DNA of 64,000 nt from Nitratireductor aquimarinus (GTDB lineage: Bacteria > Pseudomonadota > Alphaproteobacteria > Rhizobiales > Rhizobiaceae). The stretch spans positions 496,001 to 560,000 of the forward strand of contig NZ_JAFKDE010000003.1 in the NCBI RefSeq assembly GCF_017255295.1, read 5' to 3'. Of the stretch, positions 3,768 to 30,205 are shown piece by piece. The translations under genes and the position numbers were made by a program. How positions within the stretch are numbered: the first letter of the stretch is position 1; the number at the start of each line of letters is the position of its first letter. The notes below the pieces were generated by a model that did no database searches, was not told the origin of the DNA, and worked only from the letters and a program-made list of their open reading frames with translations.

Positions 3768-5025
3768 TGGCGTTTCTCCCGCCCTTCATATGGGCACGCT
3801 GAAAGTGCCGTGCCAAGTCCCCGCCCTGTGCGGGCGCATCCGTCAGCGCGGCGCACAGATCGCCAAGCGCATCGAGATTGTGCACCGGCCGCAGCTCGTC
3901 CACATGAGGCAGCATCGCCCGCATGCCGCGTGCGCGCGGCTCGAACCCGTCAAAGCCAAGCAATGGGTTAAGCCAGATCAGCCGGCGGCATGATTTCGAA
4001 AGCCGCTCCATCTCCCGCGACAGAACCTCGATATGATCGCGCTCCAGCCCGTCGGTGATCAGGAGCACGATTGCGCCCTGTCCCAGAACCCGGCGCGACC
4101 ACAGCCGGTTGAAATCGCCAAGCGCCGTGCCGATCCGCGTACCGCCGGACCAGTCGCGCACCGCTTCAGACGCTTCTTCCAGCGCCTCGTCGGGGTCACG
4201 CCGGCTGAGCGGGCGCGTGATGTTGGTCAGCCTTGTGCCGAAGGTGAAGCTGAAAACCCGCCGCCGCTTTTCCGTCAGTGCATGCAGAAAATGCAGGAAA
4301 ACCCGCGAGTACTGGCTCATTGAGCCGGAGATATCGACCAGCGCCACCAGCGGCGGCGCGATCGGGCGCGGCGAGCGGAATTTCGGCAGGATCAGGTCAC
4401 CGCCGGTGCGCAGGCTCGCCCGCAGCATCGCATGCGGATCGATCCGCGCCCCATGCGGGTCCGGCCTGAACCGGCGCGTCGCCACCCGGTCGAACGGCAG
4501 AACGAGATCGCGCATGGCGCGCCGGGCCTCGGCCACTTCCTCAGCCGACATCTGCGCGAAATCCTTCTGGCGCAGAACCTCCATCGCCGTGAAGGAAAGC
4601 CGTGCGTCCAGTTCAAACTCCGGCCGCTTCTTGATGATCGCCCGGCGCTCCTCGTCCAGCGCATCCTCGGCGCGGCGGTCGCCGGCGCGTTTCTTCTCGC
4701 GCAGCACTTCCGCCTCGTCGCCCTCGTCTTCGGTCCGCCCTTCATCGCGCTCGTCGCGCCGCGCCCAGTAGAGCCGGAACGCCGCATCGAACAGCGCATG
4801 ATCCTCATGTCTGGAAATCAGGGTGGCGTGCAGCGTCCAGTAAAAGTCGTCGCGCCGCTCGACGCCGACCGTCACCACCGCCTGAATGGCGTCCATAACG
4901 GCGGCCGGTCCCACGCGCAGCCCCGCGCGCCGGAGCATGCGGGCAAAACCGACGATCCTGTCGGCCAGCCGCGCGCCCTCTTCGCGTTCCGGTGCTCGTT
5001 TGTCCGCGTCTGGAGCAGCCGGCAT
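3760..5025 (-). CDS. coxE: CoxE-type VWA domain protein
   Basis: The 421-residue protein has a charged, helical N-terminal two-thirds rich in Arg and Glu, then a von Willebrand A-like domain with a MIDAS signature Asp-Ile-Ser-Gly-Ser-Met-Ser. This is the CoxE family (VWA_CoxE), which works with the MoxR-type ATPase CoxD to insert the Cu/S-Mo centre into CO-dehydrogenase-like enzymes. I chose the ATG at 5025, one base after the CoxD stop, giving MPAAPDADK; a longer frame would overlap the ATPase gene. The order MoxR-VWA-XdhC-MocA is a recurrent maturation module. The enzyme it serves is not in this window. The gene symbol reflects family and context; the target may be another Mo hydroxylase. 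Confidence 0.85.
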   Translation of the reverse strand: MPAAPDADKRAPEREEGARLADRIVGFARMLRRAGLRVGPAAVMDAIQAVVTVGVERRDDFYWTLHATLISRHEDHALFDAAFRLYWARRDERDEGRTEDEGDEAEVLREKKRAGDRRAEDALDEERRAIIKKRPEFELDARLSFTAMEVLRQKDFAQMSAEEVAEARRAMRDLVLPFDRVATRRFRPDPHGARIDPHAMLRASLRTGGDLILPKFRSPRPIAPPLVALVDISGSMSQYSRVFLHFLHALTEKRRRVFSFTFGTRLTNITRPLSRRDPDEALEEASEAVRDWSGGTRIGTALGDFNRLWSRRVLGQGAIVLLITDGLERDHIEVLSREMERLSKSCRRLIWLNPLLGFDGFEPRARGMRAMLPHVDELRPVHNLDALGDLCAALTDAPAQGGDLARHFQRAHMKGGRNANV

Positions 5026-5026
5026 G

Positions 5027-5941
5027 TCAGCTGGCCTTGACCTCTTCGAGAACGCGCGCGCCCTCGCCGTCTTCCAGCCGCGCAATGTCGTCCTGGTATT
5101 TCAGCAACACGCCCATCGTGTCCGACACCGCATCCGCATCAAGGCTGTCCTTGCCCAGCGCCGTCAGCGCCGTTGCCCAGTCGATGGTTTCGGCCACGCC
5201 CGGCGCCTTGAAGAGATCGAGCTCGCGCAGTTTCTGCACGAATGTCACCACCTGTTTCGCCAGCGTGGCGTTGGCGTTCGGCACCTTGCGGGCGAGAATT
5301 TCCAGCTCGCGCTGCGCATCCGGGTAATCGACCCAGTGATAAAGGCAGCGCCGCTTCAGCGCATCGTGGATTTCGCGGGTCCGGTTGGTGGTGATCACGA
5401 CAATGGGCGGTTCATCCGCCTTGATCGTTCCCAGCTCCGGCACGCTCACCTGATAGTCGGAGAGCACTTCCAGAAGATAGGCTTCGAACGCCTCATCCGC
5501 CCGGTCGAGTTCATCGATCAGGAAGATCGGCGGCCCGTCAATGCCGCTTTCCAGCGCTTCCAGCACCGGGCGGCGGATCAGGTATTTTTCGGAGAAGACG
5601 CCGCTCTCCATCTCGGAGCGGTCGTGAATGCCCGCAGCCTCGGCCATGCGGATCTCGATCATCTGCGCGGCATAGTTCCACTCATAGACGGCAGACGAAA
5701 CGTCGAGCCCTTCATAGCACTGAAGCCGGATCAGCCTGCGCCCGAGCCCCGCCGCCAGAACCTTGGCGATCTCCGTCTTGCCGACACCTGCCTCACCTTC
5801 CAGAAACAGCGGGCGCTGCATGGTCAGGCTCAGAAACAGCACGGTCGCCAGTGCCCGGTCGGCCACATAGCCGCCTTCCGTCAGAAGCGTAAGCGTCTCG
5901 TCGATGGATTGCGGCAGGCCGCGGGCTGTCGTTTCGGACAT
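5027..5941 (-). CDS. coxD: MoxR/CoxD family AAA+ ATPase
   Basis: This 304-residue AAA+ ATPase has a Walker A Gly-Glu-Ala-Gly-Val-Gly-Lys-Thr-Glu at about 49-57 and a Walker B Ile-Phe-Leu-Ile-Asp-Glu-Leu-Asp at about 139-146. These are followed by an Asn-Arg-Thr-Arg sensor segment and a lid region. MoxR ATPases pair with VWA proteins as chaperones that load metal cofactors; CoxD is the member for Mo-hydroxylases. The next gene, 1 bp downstream, encodes the VWA partner. The start is one of two adjacent ATGs (5944 or 5941); a GGGGGA stretch just before favours the second by spacing, and an ATG at 5962 is also in frame. Translation is very likely coupled to coxE. Confidence 0.88.
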   Translation of the reverse strand: MSETTARGLPQSIDETLTLLTEGGYVADRALATVLFLSLTMQRPLFLEGEAGVGKTEIAKVLAAGLGRRLIRLQCYEGLDVSSAVYEWNYAAQMIEIRMAEAAGIHDRSEMESGVFSEKYLIRRPVLEALESGIDGPPIFLIDELDRADEAFEAYLLEVLSDYQVSVPELGTIKADEPPIVVITTNRTREIHDALKRRCLYHWVDYPDAQRELEILARKVPNANATLAKQVVTFVQKLRELDLFKAPGVAETIDWATALTALGKDSLDADAVSDTMGVLLKYQDDIARLEDGEGARVLEEVKAS

Positions 5942-24729: not shown

Positions 24730-25591
24730 GACCCGCAAAGTCGAACAGTTTGCGATCCAGAAGATGGGACGGGCGCGCATTGGTCAGCGCCCGGATCATC
24801 GTGTCCTTGCGGCCGGGCATGCGGGCTTCGATGTCGGTCAGCATCGACTTCATTGCATTGCGCTGCAGCCCGTCCTGACTGCCGCACAGATCGCACGGAA
24901 TGATCGGAAAATTCATGGCGTCGGCAAACTTCGCCATGTCGCTTTCCGCACAATAGCTGAGCGGGCGCAGCACCATCACATCACCTTCATCGTTCAAAAG
25001 CTTGGGCGGCATCGCCGCCAGCCTGCCGCCGTGGAACAGGTTCATGAAGAAGGTTTCGAGAATGTCTTCCCGGTGATGACCGAGAACAAGCGAGGAGCAG
25101 CCCTCTTCGCGCGCGATCCGGTAGAGGTGCCCGCGCCGCAGCCGGGAGCAGAGCGAACAATAGGTGCTCGATTCGGGCAGTTTCTCGGTCACCACCGAAT
25201 AGGTGTCCTGATACTCGATCCGGTGCGCGACCCCGAGACTGTCCAGATAATCCGGCAAAATATGCTTTGGAAAGTTCGGCTGCCCCTGATCCAGATTGCA
25301 GGCGAGAATCTCCACCGGCAAAAGGCCGCGCCACTGAAGATCCATCAGCACCGCCAGAAGCCCGTAGGAATCCTTGCCGCCCGAAAGCGCCACAAGCCAG
25401 CGCTCGCCGGGCTTCACCATGGCGAAATCCTCGATCGCCTGACGCGTGTTGCGCAGCAGGCGTTTGCGCAGCTTGTTGAACTCCACCGAAGACGGCATAC
25501 CCTTCATGAAAGGTGGTGTGTCCTCGCCGGTCGGCGTTGCCATTTCAACGGTTTCCGCCGGTTCTTTCGGTTGCGCCAAGGTGCTATGCAT
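24713..25591 (-). CDS. ttcA: tRNA 2-thiocytidine(32) synthetase
   Basis: The 292-residue enzyme thiolates C32 of tRNA. It has the PP-loop Leu-Ser-Gly-Gly-Lys-Asp-Ser, a Cys-Ser-Leu-Cys pair and a later Cys-Asp-Leu-Cys pair that with a [4Fe-4S] cluster mark TtcA, plus Leu-Gly-His-His-Arg-Glu-Asp. I chose the ATG at 25591 (MHSTLAQ); a longer frame to 25696 lacks support, and an ATG at about 25540 would also work. Its last 17 bp overlap the convergent MFS gene. Confidence 0.9.
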
Positions 25592-25734
25592 GGGCGGGCC
25601 TTTGTCGGATCGTGTGATTTCGCGCCTTCCTATCAGAAGCCTTGCGGCAAGGCGACTTAACGAATAGGCATTTTCAACTTTCTGTTGGCAAATCACCTTT
25701 TTGATCGTGTCACCTTTTTATGGAGATTGCGCGC

Positions 25735-26730
25735 GTGGCCAAACGGCTCGACATTCTGGTCCCGTTCCTCAACGAGCGGGAAAGTGTAGCCGGCTTCTGC
25801 GCCCTGGCTGGCGATTTGGCTGCGCAGGCAAAAGAACGCTTCGGCCTCGACGCCAATTTCATCTTCATCGATGACGGCAGCACCGATGGCGGTGGCGCGC
25901 TCTATGGCGAGCACATGACCGGCGACTGGTCGCTCATCACGCTCGCGCGCAATTTCGGCAAGGAAACGGCGATCCTCGCCGGTCTCGACCGGAGCGAGGG
26001 CGATTACGTCCTGCTCATGGATGCAGATCTCCAGCACACCGCCGATGTCGCGCTCGACATGATCGGCCGCATCATCGCCGATCCCGATCTCGACATGGTC
26101 TATGCCATTCGCGCCGACCGCGCCGAAAGCCGCACGCTCGGGCGTTATCTGGCCAACGGCTTCTACTGGCTCATCAATATGGGGCAGCGCTACGAAATCC
26201 CGGCCAATGCCGGCGACTTCCGCATCATGACCCGGCGCTTCGCCATGGCGCTCCGCCAGCTGCGCGACCAGCGCCGTTTCAACAAGGGCCTCTATGCGTG
26301 GACCGGCTTCCGGCAGGAACGCATTCTCTACAAGCCGGCAGATCGCCAGGGCGGTGAAAGCAAGTGGTCGCGCCGCAAGCTGATCGCCTTTTCACTTGAA
26401 GGCTTCACCTCCTTCTCGGTCGTGCCTCTGCGCATGGTGTCGCTGTTTGGCGGCGGTGTTGCAGCACTCGGCTTCATCTACGGCATCAAGATCCTTCTGG
26501 AAGTGCTGTTCACCGGCGTCGCCGTTCCCGGCTATCCGAGCCTCATCGTCGCCGTCCTCGTGCTTGGTGGCCTCAACCTCGCCCTGACCGGCCTTGTCGG
26601 CGAATATGTCTGGTCGGCGCTGAGCGAGGCCAAGAACCGGCCGAACTACATCATCAAATCCATGTCCGGTCCGAGCGCCGTCCCGCTGGCCCAGACGCGC
26701 AAGACCGGCAGAGCGTCTCACGATGACTGA
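25735..26730 (+). CDS. Glycosyltransferase family 2 (GtrB/ArnC/FlmF-like)
   Basis: The 331-residue protein has a GT2 catalytic domain with Asp-Asp-Gly-Ser-Thr-Asp (46-51) and a metal-binding Asp-Ala-Asp (96-98), then two C-terminal membrane helices (about 228-252 and 263-288). This is the form that transfers a sugar from a nucleotide onto undecaprenyl phosphate (GtrB, ArnC, FlmF). I chose the GTG at 25735, with TGGAG 9 bp upstream, over an ATG at 25720 without a site. It overlaps the next gene by 8 bp. With the downstream deacetylase, GtrA protein and GT39 transferase it makes a likely lipid-linked sugar decoration set. Confidence 0.85.
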   Translation: MAKRLDILVPFLNERESVAGFCALAGDLAAQAKERFGLDANFIFIDDGSTDGGGALYGEHMTGDWSLITLARNFGKETAILAGLDRSEGDYVLLMDADLQHTADVALDMIGRIIADPDLDMVYAIRADRAESRTLGRYLANGFYWLINMGQRYEIPANAGDFRIMTRRFAMALRQLRDQRRFNKGLYAWTGFRQERILYKPADRQGGESKWSRRKLIAFSLEGFTSFSVVPLRMVSLFGGGVAALGFIYGIKILLEVLFTGVAVPGYPSLIVAVLVLGGLNLALTGLVGEYVWSALSEAKNRPNYIIKSMSGPSAVPLAQTRKTGRASHDD

Positions 26731-27535
26731 GCCCGCCGCCCGCTCGGTCTGGTTGATCGCCGACGATTACGGTTTCTCCCCTGCCGTCAGCGAAAGCATC
26801 CGCATGCTTCTCGCCAATGGCCGCCTGAGCGGCACGGGCTGCATGACGCTGTTCGATGACTGGCGCGACCACGCCGCCGCGCTGACAGCCACCAGCGGCA
26901 GCTTTGCGACCGGCATGCACCTCACCCTCACCGATTTTCCGGCCCTTTCCAGCGCTCGGAAAATGCCGGAGCTGAAACGGCTTCTGGCCAGTCATGACGA
27001 TGATGCCGCCATCGCCGCCGAGGCCGATGCGCAGCTTGACCGTTTCCGCGAGGCGTTCGGCCGCAATCCCGATTTCATCGACGGGCACCAGCACGTGCAT
27101 TTCCTGCCGCCGGTCCGGCGCTGGCTGGCCGCGCGCTTTGCCGATGCTCCCGCAGCCGAGCGCCCCTGGCTTCGCGGCGCACCGACGCTGCGCGCCGCCC
27201 CGGCGCTCATCAAGGCCAAGATCGTGGTTGCCCGCCTGCTCGCACGCGGTTTCGATGCCGAAATGCGCCGGCACGGCTTCGCCGTCGAAGGCCCGCTCTG
27301 CGGCTTCTATGACTGGCGGCGGAAAGGCGCATTCTCCCGCGCGCTCGATCTCTTCATTGACAGGGCGCCCGACGGCAGCGTCATCATGTGCCATCCCGGC
27401 ACGGTGGATGATGTGCTGCGCAACCGCGACGTCTTCACCGACGCCCGCGCAGAAGAGCGCGATGCGCTCGCCGCAGACGCCTTTCCCGCCCGCCTTGTCG
27501 CCGCCGGGCTTTCCCTGAGACAGGCCCGCTCATGA
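26723..27535 (+). CDS. ChbG/HpnK (YdjC/NaxD-like) deacetylase
   Basis: This 270-residue protein has the YdjC fold. It opens with Ala-Asp-Asp-Tyr-Gly-Phe-Ser (catalytic and metal Asp14-Asp15), then Gly-Met-His-Leu-Thr-Leu with His66, and a Asp-Gly-His-Gln-His-Val-His cluster (120-126). A late Cys-His-Pro-Gly-Thr-Val motif follows. Family members remove acetyl groups from N-acetylated sugars (ChbG, HpnK, NaxD). NaxD of Francisella deacetylates undecaprenyl-phosphate-GalNAc for lipid A modification, and the neighbouring GT2 and GT39 genes suggest a similar role. The enzyme would act on the cytosolic face. It overlaps the GT2 gene by 8 bp and the GtrA gene by 4. Confidence 0.85.
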   Translation: MTEPAARSVWLIADDYGFSPAVSESIRMLLANGRLSGTGCMTLFDDWRDHAAALTATSGSFATGMHLTLTDFPALSSARKMPELKRLLASHDDDAAIAAEADAQLDRFREAFGRNPDFIDGHQHVHFLPPVRRWLAARFADAPAAERPWLRGAPTLRAAPALIKAKIVVARLLARGFDAEMRRHGFAVEGPLCGFYDWRRKGAFSRALDLFIDRAPDGSVIMCHPGTVDDVLRNRDVFTDARAEERDALAADAFPARLVAAGLSLRQARS

Positions 27536-27933
27536 GCGAAGGCGAGAACCGCACGCTTTCCGCAAAGCTGGGCCGCTTCGCGGTGGTCGGCGTTTTGAAC
27601 ACGGTGATCGACTTCGCCACCTTCACGGCGCTGATCGCCCTGTCTTTTGCGCCGCTGCTCGCCAATTTTCTCGGCTGGGCGGTGGCGGTGATCTTTTCCT
27701 TTGTCGTCAACTCACGCTGGACATTCGAGCGGGCGGAGCGTTTCAGCCTGCACAGGGCGTTTGCGAAATTCGCCGTCAGCGGCAGCATCATCTCGCTTGG
27801 CTCGTCGACGCTCGCCGTCTATCTCCTGCCCCCGCTCACCGGTCTTTTCGCGGCCAAGCTGATCGGCATCGTGATCGGCGCGATCCTGAATTTCTTCGCC
27901 GCGCGCTGGTCCATAGAAGACCGCATCATTTGA
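27532..27933 (+). CDS. GtrA family membrane protein (flippase)
   Basis: The 133-residue protein has four hydrophobic helices and the GtrA pattern Phe-Ala-Val-Val-Gly-Val-Leu-Asn-Thr-Val-Ile-Asp at the first helix and Asn-Phe-Phe-Ala-Ala-Arg-Trp at the end. GtrA proteins flip undecaprenyl-linked sugars across the inner membrane or help to do so. The start overlaps the deacetylase gene by 4 bp, so the three genes are coupled. The product of the GT2 and deacetylase enzymes is its likely cargo. Confidence 0.87.
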   Translation: MSEGENRTLSAKLGRFAVVGVLNTVIDFATFTALIALSFAPLLANFLGWAVAVIFSFVVNSRWTFERAERFSLHRAFAKFAVSGSIISLGSSTLAVYLLPPLTGLFAAKLIGIVIGAILNFFAARWSIEDRII

Positions 27934-27976
27934 GGGAATTTCGGGTAAAACGAAGAAATTTCGTCCCGAATTTCCC
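27934..27976. terminator. Stem-loop between convergent gtrA and GT39 genes
   Basis: GGGAATTTCGGG pairs with CCCGAATTTCCC (one mismatch); As flank the stem on one side and a T-rich tract on the other. It lies in the 72 bp gap and may terminate both genes. Confidence 0.6.
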
Positions 27977-28005
27977 AAAAACAGACCGTTTTTCCGAAAA
28001 AGAAA

Positions 28006-29496
28006 TCAGGAGCCCTGAGCCGCCGGCGGCATGAAGAACAGCTGCACCGTCCAGCTGCGCTCACCACCGAAACCGGGCACGGTCAGAACCTGCGTCTCCG
28101 CCCCTGCGCCCGCCAGTTCTTCAGCCTTTGCAAGACATCCCGACTGACCGTCAAAACAGGCGATCGCCATGCCCTTCTCGGCCACCGCCTGCGGCGAAAT
28201 CCATGGCGTCAGCGCATAGGAATTGCCCTGCATGGAGAAGGGACGCGAGGCGGTGTAGAACGTGGTGCCGCTCGCCAGGATCTTGTCGCCCGCCACATGG
28301 GTAAGCGGCGTGTCGAACCGGTCGTTCCAGGCCGCCTCGATCTCCGTTGCAATCGCGCGAACCGGCACATTGTTGTAGTGCGAGGTGTTCTTCGCCTCTT
28401 CCGCATAGATGAAGGGCGACAGCGCAAGAAGGGACGCGCCGTAGATCACCACGGCAGCGGGAATTGCCAGTTTCTGCGCCTCAAGCCGCCCCGGCTTGAT
28501 GAGCAGAATCAGAAAGATGGGCGCGGCGAAATAGAGCGGCAGCGCCCAGACGGAGCTGAACTGCACCGTGAATGCAATGCCAAGAACGAGCGTCAGCGCC
28601 AGCGAACCGAAGCCGGTCCACAGAAGCGCCCTGCCGGCCAGCGTCTTGCGCAGCGCCAGGAAGGGCGTTGCATCAAACCACGGCCCGCGCCCGTTGCGCA
28701 GTATGGCGATCAGAAGCACCAGCACCACCGGCAGCATGTAGGCCAGAAGCGCGCCAAGGAAACGGGGGGCGGAGGTGATGCCGATCAGCGCGGAACCATC
28801 GCCCTGCTCCGACACATAGGTGAGCGGCAGGAAATCGTTGCCAACAAGCCAGATCAGATGCGGTGTCACCAGCGCGACAAAGACGAGGCTGGCAACCCAG
28901 ACGCCCGGGCGCAGCAGCAGCGCGCGCGCTTCCCGGTCGATCAGGACATGAAGGACAATCGCGCCCAGAAGCGCGCCGGAGAAATATTTGATCAGCACCG
29001 AAGCCGCAGCCAGCGCGCCCAGAATGATGGCGTCGGAAAGCCGCTGCTTTTCAAGAAAGCGCAGATAGAACCAGACCGTCGCCGCCCAGAAAGGCAGCAT
29101 CGCCGAATTGGCGTTGTACTTGATGGCTAAAAAGGTGACCGGCGGCAGGAAGAAGAAGAGCGCGGTGCTCAAAAACGCGCGCCACGGATCGAGAAACCGC
29201 ACGGCGATGCGCCAGCTTGCAAACATGAGCGCGGCGCTGTTGACGGCCGACAGGAGATAGTAGGCCCAGTCCACATTCGGGAAGACGGAGAACCAGGCGG
29301 CCGTGATCCAGGCGAAAAGCGGCGGATGCTTGTAGTAGCCCTGCTCCCAGGCGATGCCCCAGGAGTAGTTTTCCAGCATGTCGCCGAAACCGTCGAGATT
29401 GAGCTGCGTCAGGCTCGCATAGACCGTCCATAAGCCCACGAAAAAGGCCAGCAACAAGCCCATCCGCAACCCGGACGCCTTCGCCAGTCCCGTCAT
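28006..29496 (-). CDS. Glycosyltransferase family 39 (ArnT/FlmK-like)
   Basis: The 496-residue membrane protein has an N-terminal helix, a periplasmic loop with Glu-Asn-Tyr-Ser-Trp-Gly and Tyr-Tyr-Lys-His-Pro-Pro-Leu, and about ten more helices, the GT-C type plan. Its relatives move a sugar from undecaprenyl phosphate to lipid A or another envelope acceptor on the outer side of the inner membrane. I chose the ATG at 29496 (MTGLAKAS), preceded by AGGCGAGG. The gene converges on the GT2-deacetylase-GtrA operon, with a stem-loop between the two. Together they cover synthesis, deacetylation, flipping and transfer of a lipid-linked sugar. The acceptor is not proven. Confidence 0.83.
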   Translation of the reverse strand: MTGLAKASGLRMGLLLAFFVGLWTVYASLTQLNLDGFGDMLENYSWGIAWEQGYYKHPPLFAWITAAWFSVFPNVDWAYYLLSAVNSAALMFASWRIAVRFLDPWRAFLSTALFFFLPPVTFLAIKYNANSAMLPFWAATVWFYLRFLEKQRLSDAIILGALAAASVLIKYFSGALLGAIVLHVLIDREARALLLRPGVWVASLVFVALVTPHLIWLVGNDFLPLTYVSEQGDGSALIGITSAPRFLGALLAYMLPVVLVLLIAILRNGRGPWFDATPFLALRKTLAGRALLWTGFGSLALTLVLGIAFTVQFSSVWALPLYFAAPIFLILLIKPGRLEAQKLAIPAAVVIYGASLLALSPFIYAEEAKNTSHYNNVPVRAIATEIEAAWNDRFDTPLTHVAGDKILASGTTFYTASRPFSMQGNSYALTPWISPQAVAEKGMAIACFDGQSGCLAKAEELAGAGAETQVLTVPGFGGERSWTVQLFFMPPAAQGS

Positions 29497-29587
29497 GCAA
29501 GCACCTCGCCTCTTCCCGAAAAAAGACAAAAAAGAAGGCGCCCGGCCACTGGCAGGACGCCCCCCAAAAATTACCTGCCGAAAGGTA

Positions 29588-30205
29588 TCAGCGCGAGTAA
29601 TACTCGACAACCAGGTTCGGCTCCATATGCACGGCATACGGCACATCGGAGATGGCCGGAACGCGCAGATAGGTGGCAACCATCTTGTTGTGGTCGACTT
29701 CGACATAGTCCGGAACATCGCGCTCTGCGAGCTGCGTTGCTTCCATGACGATGGCGAGCTGCTTCGACTTTTCCTTGACCTCGATCACGTCGCCAGCCTT
29801 ACAGCGGTAGGACGGGATGTTGACGCGGCGGCCGTTGACCAGGATGTGACCATGGTTCACGAACTGGCGCGCAGCGAAGATCGTCGGAACGAATTTGGCG
29901 CGGTAGACCACGGCGTCGAGACGGGACTCCAGGAGACCGATCAGGTTCTCGTTGGTGTCGCCCTTGCGACGGTTCGCCTCGTCGTAGGTCTTGCGGAACT
30001 GCTTTTCCGAAATGTCGCCGTAGTGACCTTTCAGCTTCTGCTTGGCGCGCAGCTGCAGACCGAAGTCCGAGAGCTTGCCCTTGCGGCGCTGACCGTGCTG
30101 GCCGGGGCCATATTCACGACGGTTGACCGGGGACTTCGGACGGCCCCAGATGTTTTCGCCAAGACGGCGATCAAGCTTGTACTTTGCAGAATGGCGCTTG
30201 CTCAT
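29588..30205 (-). CDS. rpsD: 30S ribosomal protein S4
   Basis: This 205-residue protein opens Ser-Lys-Arg-His-Ser-Ala-Lys-Tyr-Lys and has the S4 RNA-binding domain (about 94-155), including [14 protein letters not shown]. S4 starts 30S assembly by binding 16S rRNA. I chose the ATG at 30205, preceded by AAAGGGA; 35 extra upstream codons have no support. As in other alphaproteobacteria it stands alone. The 280 bp upstream hold the leader and promoter, where S4 autocontrol could work. Confidence 0.97.

Follow-up and report, generated by a model that had tools for sequence, protein, structure and literature searches.

We take Francisella FlmF2/NaxD/FlmK and Bordetella LgmA-D to belong to the enzyme families of sugar-lipid synthase, deacetylase and transferase. 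The Francisella and Bordetella systems are described, in the available text of the reports, as placing galactosamine (GalN) or glucosamine (GlcN) on lipid A (PMC4688374, PMC4993483); lgmA-C are required for GlcN on Bordetella lipid A and lgmD is not essential (PMC4993483), and in Acinetobacter baumannii NaxD acts on lipid A and is needed for its galactosamine (PMC10927774). The three-component Gtr scheme, as outlined in PMC11127046, combines a GT2 synthase, a GtrA flippase and a periplasmic GT-C transferase. Here we analyse a locus of Nitratireductor aquimarinus that lies in a 64,000-nucleotide stretch of DNA, henceforth the window (contig NZ_JAFKDE010000003.1, positions 496,001 to 560,000), and that consists of a GT2-YdjC-GtrA trio and a PMT_2 transferase. 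We propose that the locus probably encodes a four-part periplasmic glycosylation system, three components plus a deacetylase, which adds GlcN or GalN to an envelope glycan.

The window genome (4.57 Mb, 99.99% complete) has Nitratireductor as its closest named relatives, and ttcA and rpsD flank the four genes (Table 1). GT2 and YdjC overlap by 8 bp and YdjC and GtrA by 4 bp; the transferase, downstream of rpsD and on its strand, is convergent to the trio, with the stop codons 72 bp apart. This layout had been described in an earlier sequence-only reading and is confirmed by the coordinates. The same reading had typed the synthase as GtrB/ArnC-like, which alignment over residues 5-319 to both GtrB sll0501 (5ekp, 5.2e-56) and ArnC (9bhc, 1.8e-25) bears out; its label 'GT39' for the transferase is loose, PMT_2 being the sole Pfam match. 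At E <= 1e-3, YdjC, PMT_2 and GtrB-like GT2 are each represented once in the genome, in every case at this locus. Because each family is single-copy in the genome at the locus, and because the order recurs in relatives, the arrangement is not a matter of chance; the single PMT_2 protein is therefore the sole PMT_2 candidate user of the GT2 product, if any PMT_2 enzyme uses it.

Table 1 Genes of the putative amino sugar module, in window positions
Feature	Position	Strand	Remarks
GT2, GtrB-like polyprenyl-phosphate sugar synthase	25735-26730	+	GTG start; PF00535 1.9e-18
GT2 alternative start	ATG at 25720	+	open reading frame
YdjC/ChbG-family deacetylase, NaxD-like	26723-27535	+	PF04794 7.4e-41
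GtrA-family small membrane protein, presumed lipid-linked sugar flippase	27532-27933	+	PF04138 5.2e-21
PMT_2 GT-C transferase, 'KHPP' clade	28006-29496	-	PF13231 4.3e-29; starts at an internal ATG within a longer frame

The cluster of A. baumannii (L314, CP040041.1) has the same kinds of parts, YdjC, GT2, GtrA and GT39, there in one run on one strand. Its GT2 and YdjC are 36% and 27% identical to those of the window and its GtrA gives no match at 1e-3; its transferase, unlike the window's, matches PMT as well as PMT_2 and belongs to another clade. We read this cluster as the naxD operon because each of four A. baumannii records has a single YdjC match, the one in this cluster. The L314 record, 561 kb long and labelled a plasmid, carries gyrA beside the cluster and may be chromosomal. 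To the Flm and Lgm systems the window module is similar by published description only, which for both gives a sugar-lipid synthase, a deacetylase and a transferase. Like a Gtr system, the window brings together a GtrB-like synthase, GtrA and a GT-C transferase, and its GT2 is 37% identical to the GtrB of phages P22 and SfII; unlike a Gtr system, it has an added YdjC and a His rather than an Asp after the DxD motif.

The sequence-only reading expected a hexosamine route to be unusual in rhizobia, an expectation that did not hold. The pair or trio occurs in Nitratireductor, Mesorhizobium, Rhizobium, Agrobacterium, Allorhizobium, Aquamicrobium and other genera, and the same four kinds of gene, compared by name only, are printed for Brucella abortus as gtrA-wcaA-chbG-arnT (BAB2_0132-0135) in a MucR regulon table, under polysaccharide biosynthesis/modification (PMC10746212, available text). 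The module thus follows a known four-part scheme, departs from it in the clade of its transferase and is common across Rhizobiaceae. A literature search that lay largely outside subscription papers found no study of it in Nitratireductor or Mesorhizobium. For Nitratireductor sp. OM-1, a method of transformation has been reported (PMC10665240).

The donor half, GT2 plus YdjC, is well supported. The GT2 motif DADLQH keeps both DxD aspartates, and D161 aligns with D157 of sll0501, the catalytic aspartate according to the available text of PMC4728340. The YdjC motifs ADD, GMHLTLT and DGHQHVH are kept in the window protein and likewise in A. baumannii YdjC. A GtrB/ArnC-like GT2 beside YdjC, the arrangement of a NaxD-type module, is the rule elsewhere: a survey of named loci (98 found, 80 retained, partner genes counted within the fetched flanks) placed the two genes within 300 bp of each other in 79 of 80, the exception being L075, which is without GT2, and GtrA was present in 61. 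Among 151 Rhizobiaceae genomes, every one of the 18 trio-type GT2s was in a YdjC-carrying genome. Identity of the window YdjC with the chitin disaccharide deacetylase ChbG was rejected at 72.4 bits against an NCBIfam equivalog cut-off of 227, and nine further YdjCs (eight from such clusters and that of A. baumannii) all fell below the ChbG and HpnK cut-offs, with ChbG-model scores of 43.7-89.2 bits.

A His follows the DxD motif in the YdjC-clustered GT2s of the named loci (79/79), of the Rhizobiaceae sample (18/18, two with a transferase between the genes) and of other families (20/20, ten of them of a different type, DGDGQH), three sets that partly overlap in genomes. The 52 GtrB-like GT2s unclustered with YdjC have Asp (43), Glu (5) or His (4) at this position. 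The motif count drew on a list of 79 places, distinct from the named loci, of which it covered 70 (30 loci given, 40 fetched). Asp is also present in the glucosyl GtrBs (sll0501, phages P22 and SfII, and an Oenococcus phage), Asn in ArnC, and His in the A. baumannii GT2 (DADFQH) and, as H101, in that of the window. The GT2 row of L028 was excluded from alignment A3 for a stop in its reference, and the pattern search found no motif in L340. From these patterns we infer that His after DxD may mark an N-acetylhexosamine donor, in which case the His/Asp position would allow a simple and testable prediction of the donor sugar across a large family of enzymes. Sequence kinship could lie behind part of the pattern. 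In ten loci of family f3 (L257-L259, L262-L266, L269, L270), YdjC adjoins the other, DGDGQH type of GT2, and two of these YdjCs have NCBIfam scores under both the HpnK and ChbG cut-offs.

NCBIfam returned nothing above any cut-off for the transferases. Searched as a profile against the PDB, the transferase alignment matched only a designed protein, at 0.24, and the fold was therefore predicted instead. The predicted model (mean predicted local distance difference test score, pLDDT, 89.3; predicted template modelling score, pTM, 0.89) has ArnT as its best PDB match (Foldseek 4.3e-7), with a structural alignment (VIA-align) at Z 26.1, a root mean square deviation of 4.9 over 431 residues and 13% identity. 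Next is oligosaccharyltransferase (OST) at Z 23.1; OST, PMT and other GT-C enzymes trail ArnT by at least 3 Z units. Judged from this model the transferase is an ArnT-like GT-C enzyme by fold; since OST, PMT and other GT-C enzymes appear in the same list, the acceptor cannot be read from the fold alone. A single FastTree run grouped the transferases linked to the other genes in Rhizobiaceae and Variovorax, with that of the window among them, in a clade of their own (support 0.89); the A. baumannii transferase and the RgtF-like protein of Mesorhizobium ciceri fell together in a different, ArnT-type clade. BLAST of the window transferase against that of A. baumannii gave no match at 1e-3. By sequence, then, it appears not to be an ArnT/FlmK-type orthologue: the ArnT-type-clade transferase of a NaxD-type module is not what stands here, though the predicted fold is nearest ArnT.

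The transferase is coupled to YdjC, GT2 and GtrA. It lies within the fetched flanks in 30 of the 80 named loci, 14 of these on the GT2/YdjC strand. In the 151 Rhizobiaceae genomes (transferase E <= 2e-80; a 20th YdjC match, in G051, dropped as its frame is not YdjC), YdjC occurs in 19, the transferase in 20 and both in 14 (Fisher 1.8e-11), and in 398 Pseudomonadota genomes (YdjC E <= 4.9e-27, transferase E <= 1e-40) the counts are 42, 32 and 27 (2.8e-26; 3e-17 without family f3), all p-values being too small because the genomes are related. Transferase, GT2 and YdjC are together in all seven clusters found in four other families, on one strand in six and with a clear GtrA in five.

A natural cassette swap is in keeping with donor genes that determine which sugar the module adds. 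Loci L032 (genome G030) and L205 (G129) come from two metagenome-assembled genomes of the same genus, with ~90-92% identity to either side of the exchanged stretch. In the interval from ttcA to GtrA, L032 has GT2 and YdjC, and L205 has a different, LQD-type GT2 without YdjC; the genome search found no YdjC match in G129. GtrA (66% identical as protein) and the transferase (95% identical) are retained in both, so that G129 has a Gtr-type trio without YdjC at the same locus. L284 (G043) likewise reads ttcA, LQD-type GT2, GtrA. Comparing two such loci would be a convenient way to learn which half of the module determines the sugar.

Taken together, a model for the module emerges, built on observed gene order, families, conservation, coupling and the ArnT-like fold of the predicted model, with every chemical step drawn from the families and their gene company. 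The GT2 would load N-acetylhexosamine from a UDP-sugar onto undecaprenyl phosphate (Und-P) at the inner face of the membrane; YdjC would deacetylate it to positively charged Und-P-hexosamine (GlcN or GalN); GtrA would flip this across the membrane; and, on the periplasmic side, the PMT_2 GT-C enzyme would hand the cationic sugar on to its acceptor. If so, Nitratireductor and many rhizobia can display a cationic amino sugar on the outer face of the inner membrane or on glycans of the cell surface. Such a change of charge alters cationic peptide resistance in pathogens, and could have a bearing on how symbionts withstand plant peptides. A broader proposal, put forward only tentatively and with less than even confidence, is that Rhizobiaceae and other Pseudomonadota share a common, so far undescribed system for envelope charge, with interchangeable donor cassettes feeding a conserved flippase and 'KHPP' transferase that act on a non-lipid-A glycan; the His/Asp position would tell the sugar, GT2 with YdjC forming a cationic hexosamine cassette and GT2 alone supplying a neutral sugar.

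Several observations weigh against the four genes acting as one hexosamine unit. The window transferase is on the opposite strand, facing the trio; 19 of the 80 named loci are without GtrA; and 46 of the 80, almost all of them from Mesorhizobium, lack a transferase in the flanks of the trio. The genome counts include a transferase without YdjC (6/20 in Rhizobiaceae, 5/32 in Pseudomonadota) and YdjC without a transferase (5/19 and 15/42), and in three of the six Rhizobiaceae genomes with a transferase only, at L202, L203 and L206, the transferase stands beside rpsD with GT2, YdjC and GtrA not detected nearby. M. ciceri and M. erdmanii, both Mesorhizobium genomes examined, and one Oryzicola have an unlinked transferase in the linked-transferase clade, which, from its place in the tree, may be the partner of a lone trio. 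The His after DxD may itself reflect clade membership and not the sugar loaded.

The lone trios, and the lone transferases beside rpsD, would suit cytoplasmic synthesis of a membrane lipid that carries GlcN, the PMT_2 gene being a bystander kept beside rpsD. The models for such a route are gpgSDF of Pseudomonas aeruginosa, a three-gene operon reported to make GlcN-phosphatidylglycerol (PMC12713373), and hexSDF of Clostridioides difficile, which share with the window the transferase-deacetylase-flippase order and, in the published descriptions, a GlcN product. Kinship with them was assumed at first and dropped on family mismatch. The window Pfam families differ from those given in the available text of PMC12713373 and PMC10128005, which are GT4 (GpgS) or a glycosyltransferase like monogalactosyldiacylglycerol (MGDG) synthase, COG3233 (GpgD) or polysaccharide deacetylase, and UPF0104 (GpgF) or an MprF-like flippase; no lipid-linked donor takes part there. 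The window GT2, moreover, is GtrB-like, and in other bacterial families transferase and YdjC are found in the same genomes and the same clusters, well away from rpsD; we consider the cytoplasmic route improbable. Far less credible still is a galacturonate (GalA) route, in which GT2 makes Und-P-galacturonate for an RgtE/RgtF-like pathway. The rhizobial RgtF-like and RgtE proteins share the GT-C and GT2 superfamilies with the window's, according to the available text of PMC5644692; GalA requires no deacetylase, however, and the genome has one GtrB-like GT2 and one PMT_2 protein, which does not group with the RgtF-like protein of M. ciceri in the tree. At the PMT_2 level the window genome has no RgtA-F-like proteins, RgtA-E not having been fetched by name. 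The HpnI/HpnK pathway to GlcN-bacteriohopanetetrol follows the same logic, a GT2 and then a YdjC-family deacetylase (PMC12583986, available text). It was rejected, as the least probable of the alternatives, on the HpnK model score of 44.8 bits against a cut-off of 232.6 and on the lack of any squalene-hopene cyclase match in the genome, the latter with a weak control (2 of 14 control genomes match, none above cut-off).

Addition of the hexosamine to lipid A, as in the naxD, flm and lgm systems, is the target that the sequence-only reading had named; we think it rather unlikely. The four parts shared with A. baumannii, the lipid A roles of naxD and lgmA-C described above and the ArnT match of the transferase model all speak for it. 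The window genome has no RgtF-like protein, its only PMT_2 protein being the one at the locus, and no clear LpxE orthologue (best E 5.6e-6 over 121 residues, with a query identified by its position beside an RgtF-like gene); its lipid A phosphates may therefore be free for a sugar. In M. ciceri (L167, 4464-6983), an RgtF-like PMT/PMT_2 protein adjoins an LpxE-type PAP2 protein, and neither has a clear counterpart in the window genome. Against lipid A stand the clade of the transferase and its lack of a BLAST match to that of A. baumannii. The M. huakuii type strain, moreover, carries the trio (the comparison covers the trio genes), and its lipid A, in the available text of PMC5644692, is a 2,3-diamino-2,3-dideoxyglucose (GlcN3N) disaccharide with GalA and partial 4'-phosphate, without added hexosamine; that of M. 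loti MAFF303099 is almost the same (PMC4103559, lipid A chemistry alone, available text). The module genes may be off in M. huakuii culture, which would weaken this counter-evidence. Mild acid can also remove sugars linked through phosphate, a caveat to the same data, for which we presume from the collection number that NBRC 15243, the M. huakuii type strain, is IFO 15243. We regard an envelope glycan (O-antigen, core or other) as a somewhat likelier acceptor than lipid A. Of the cluster logic first put forward, we retain the order GT2, YdjC, GtrA, transferase and the view that the product is probably an amino sugar, because the parts match the A. baumannii cluster and the GT2 carries the His of YdjC-clustered GT2s; we do not retain lipid A as the target.

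Beyond the module, a promoter scan of 25500-29700 returned none (0.7 expected), and the window had no Rfam match. In Rhizobium locus L060, an unrelated gene, glutaminase-like by translation (4890-5828), replaces the transferase between rpsD and GT2. The window contains one tRNA.

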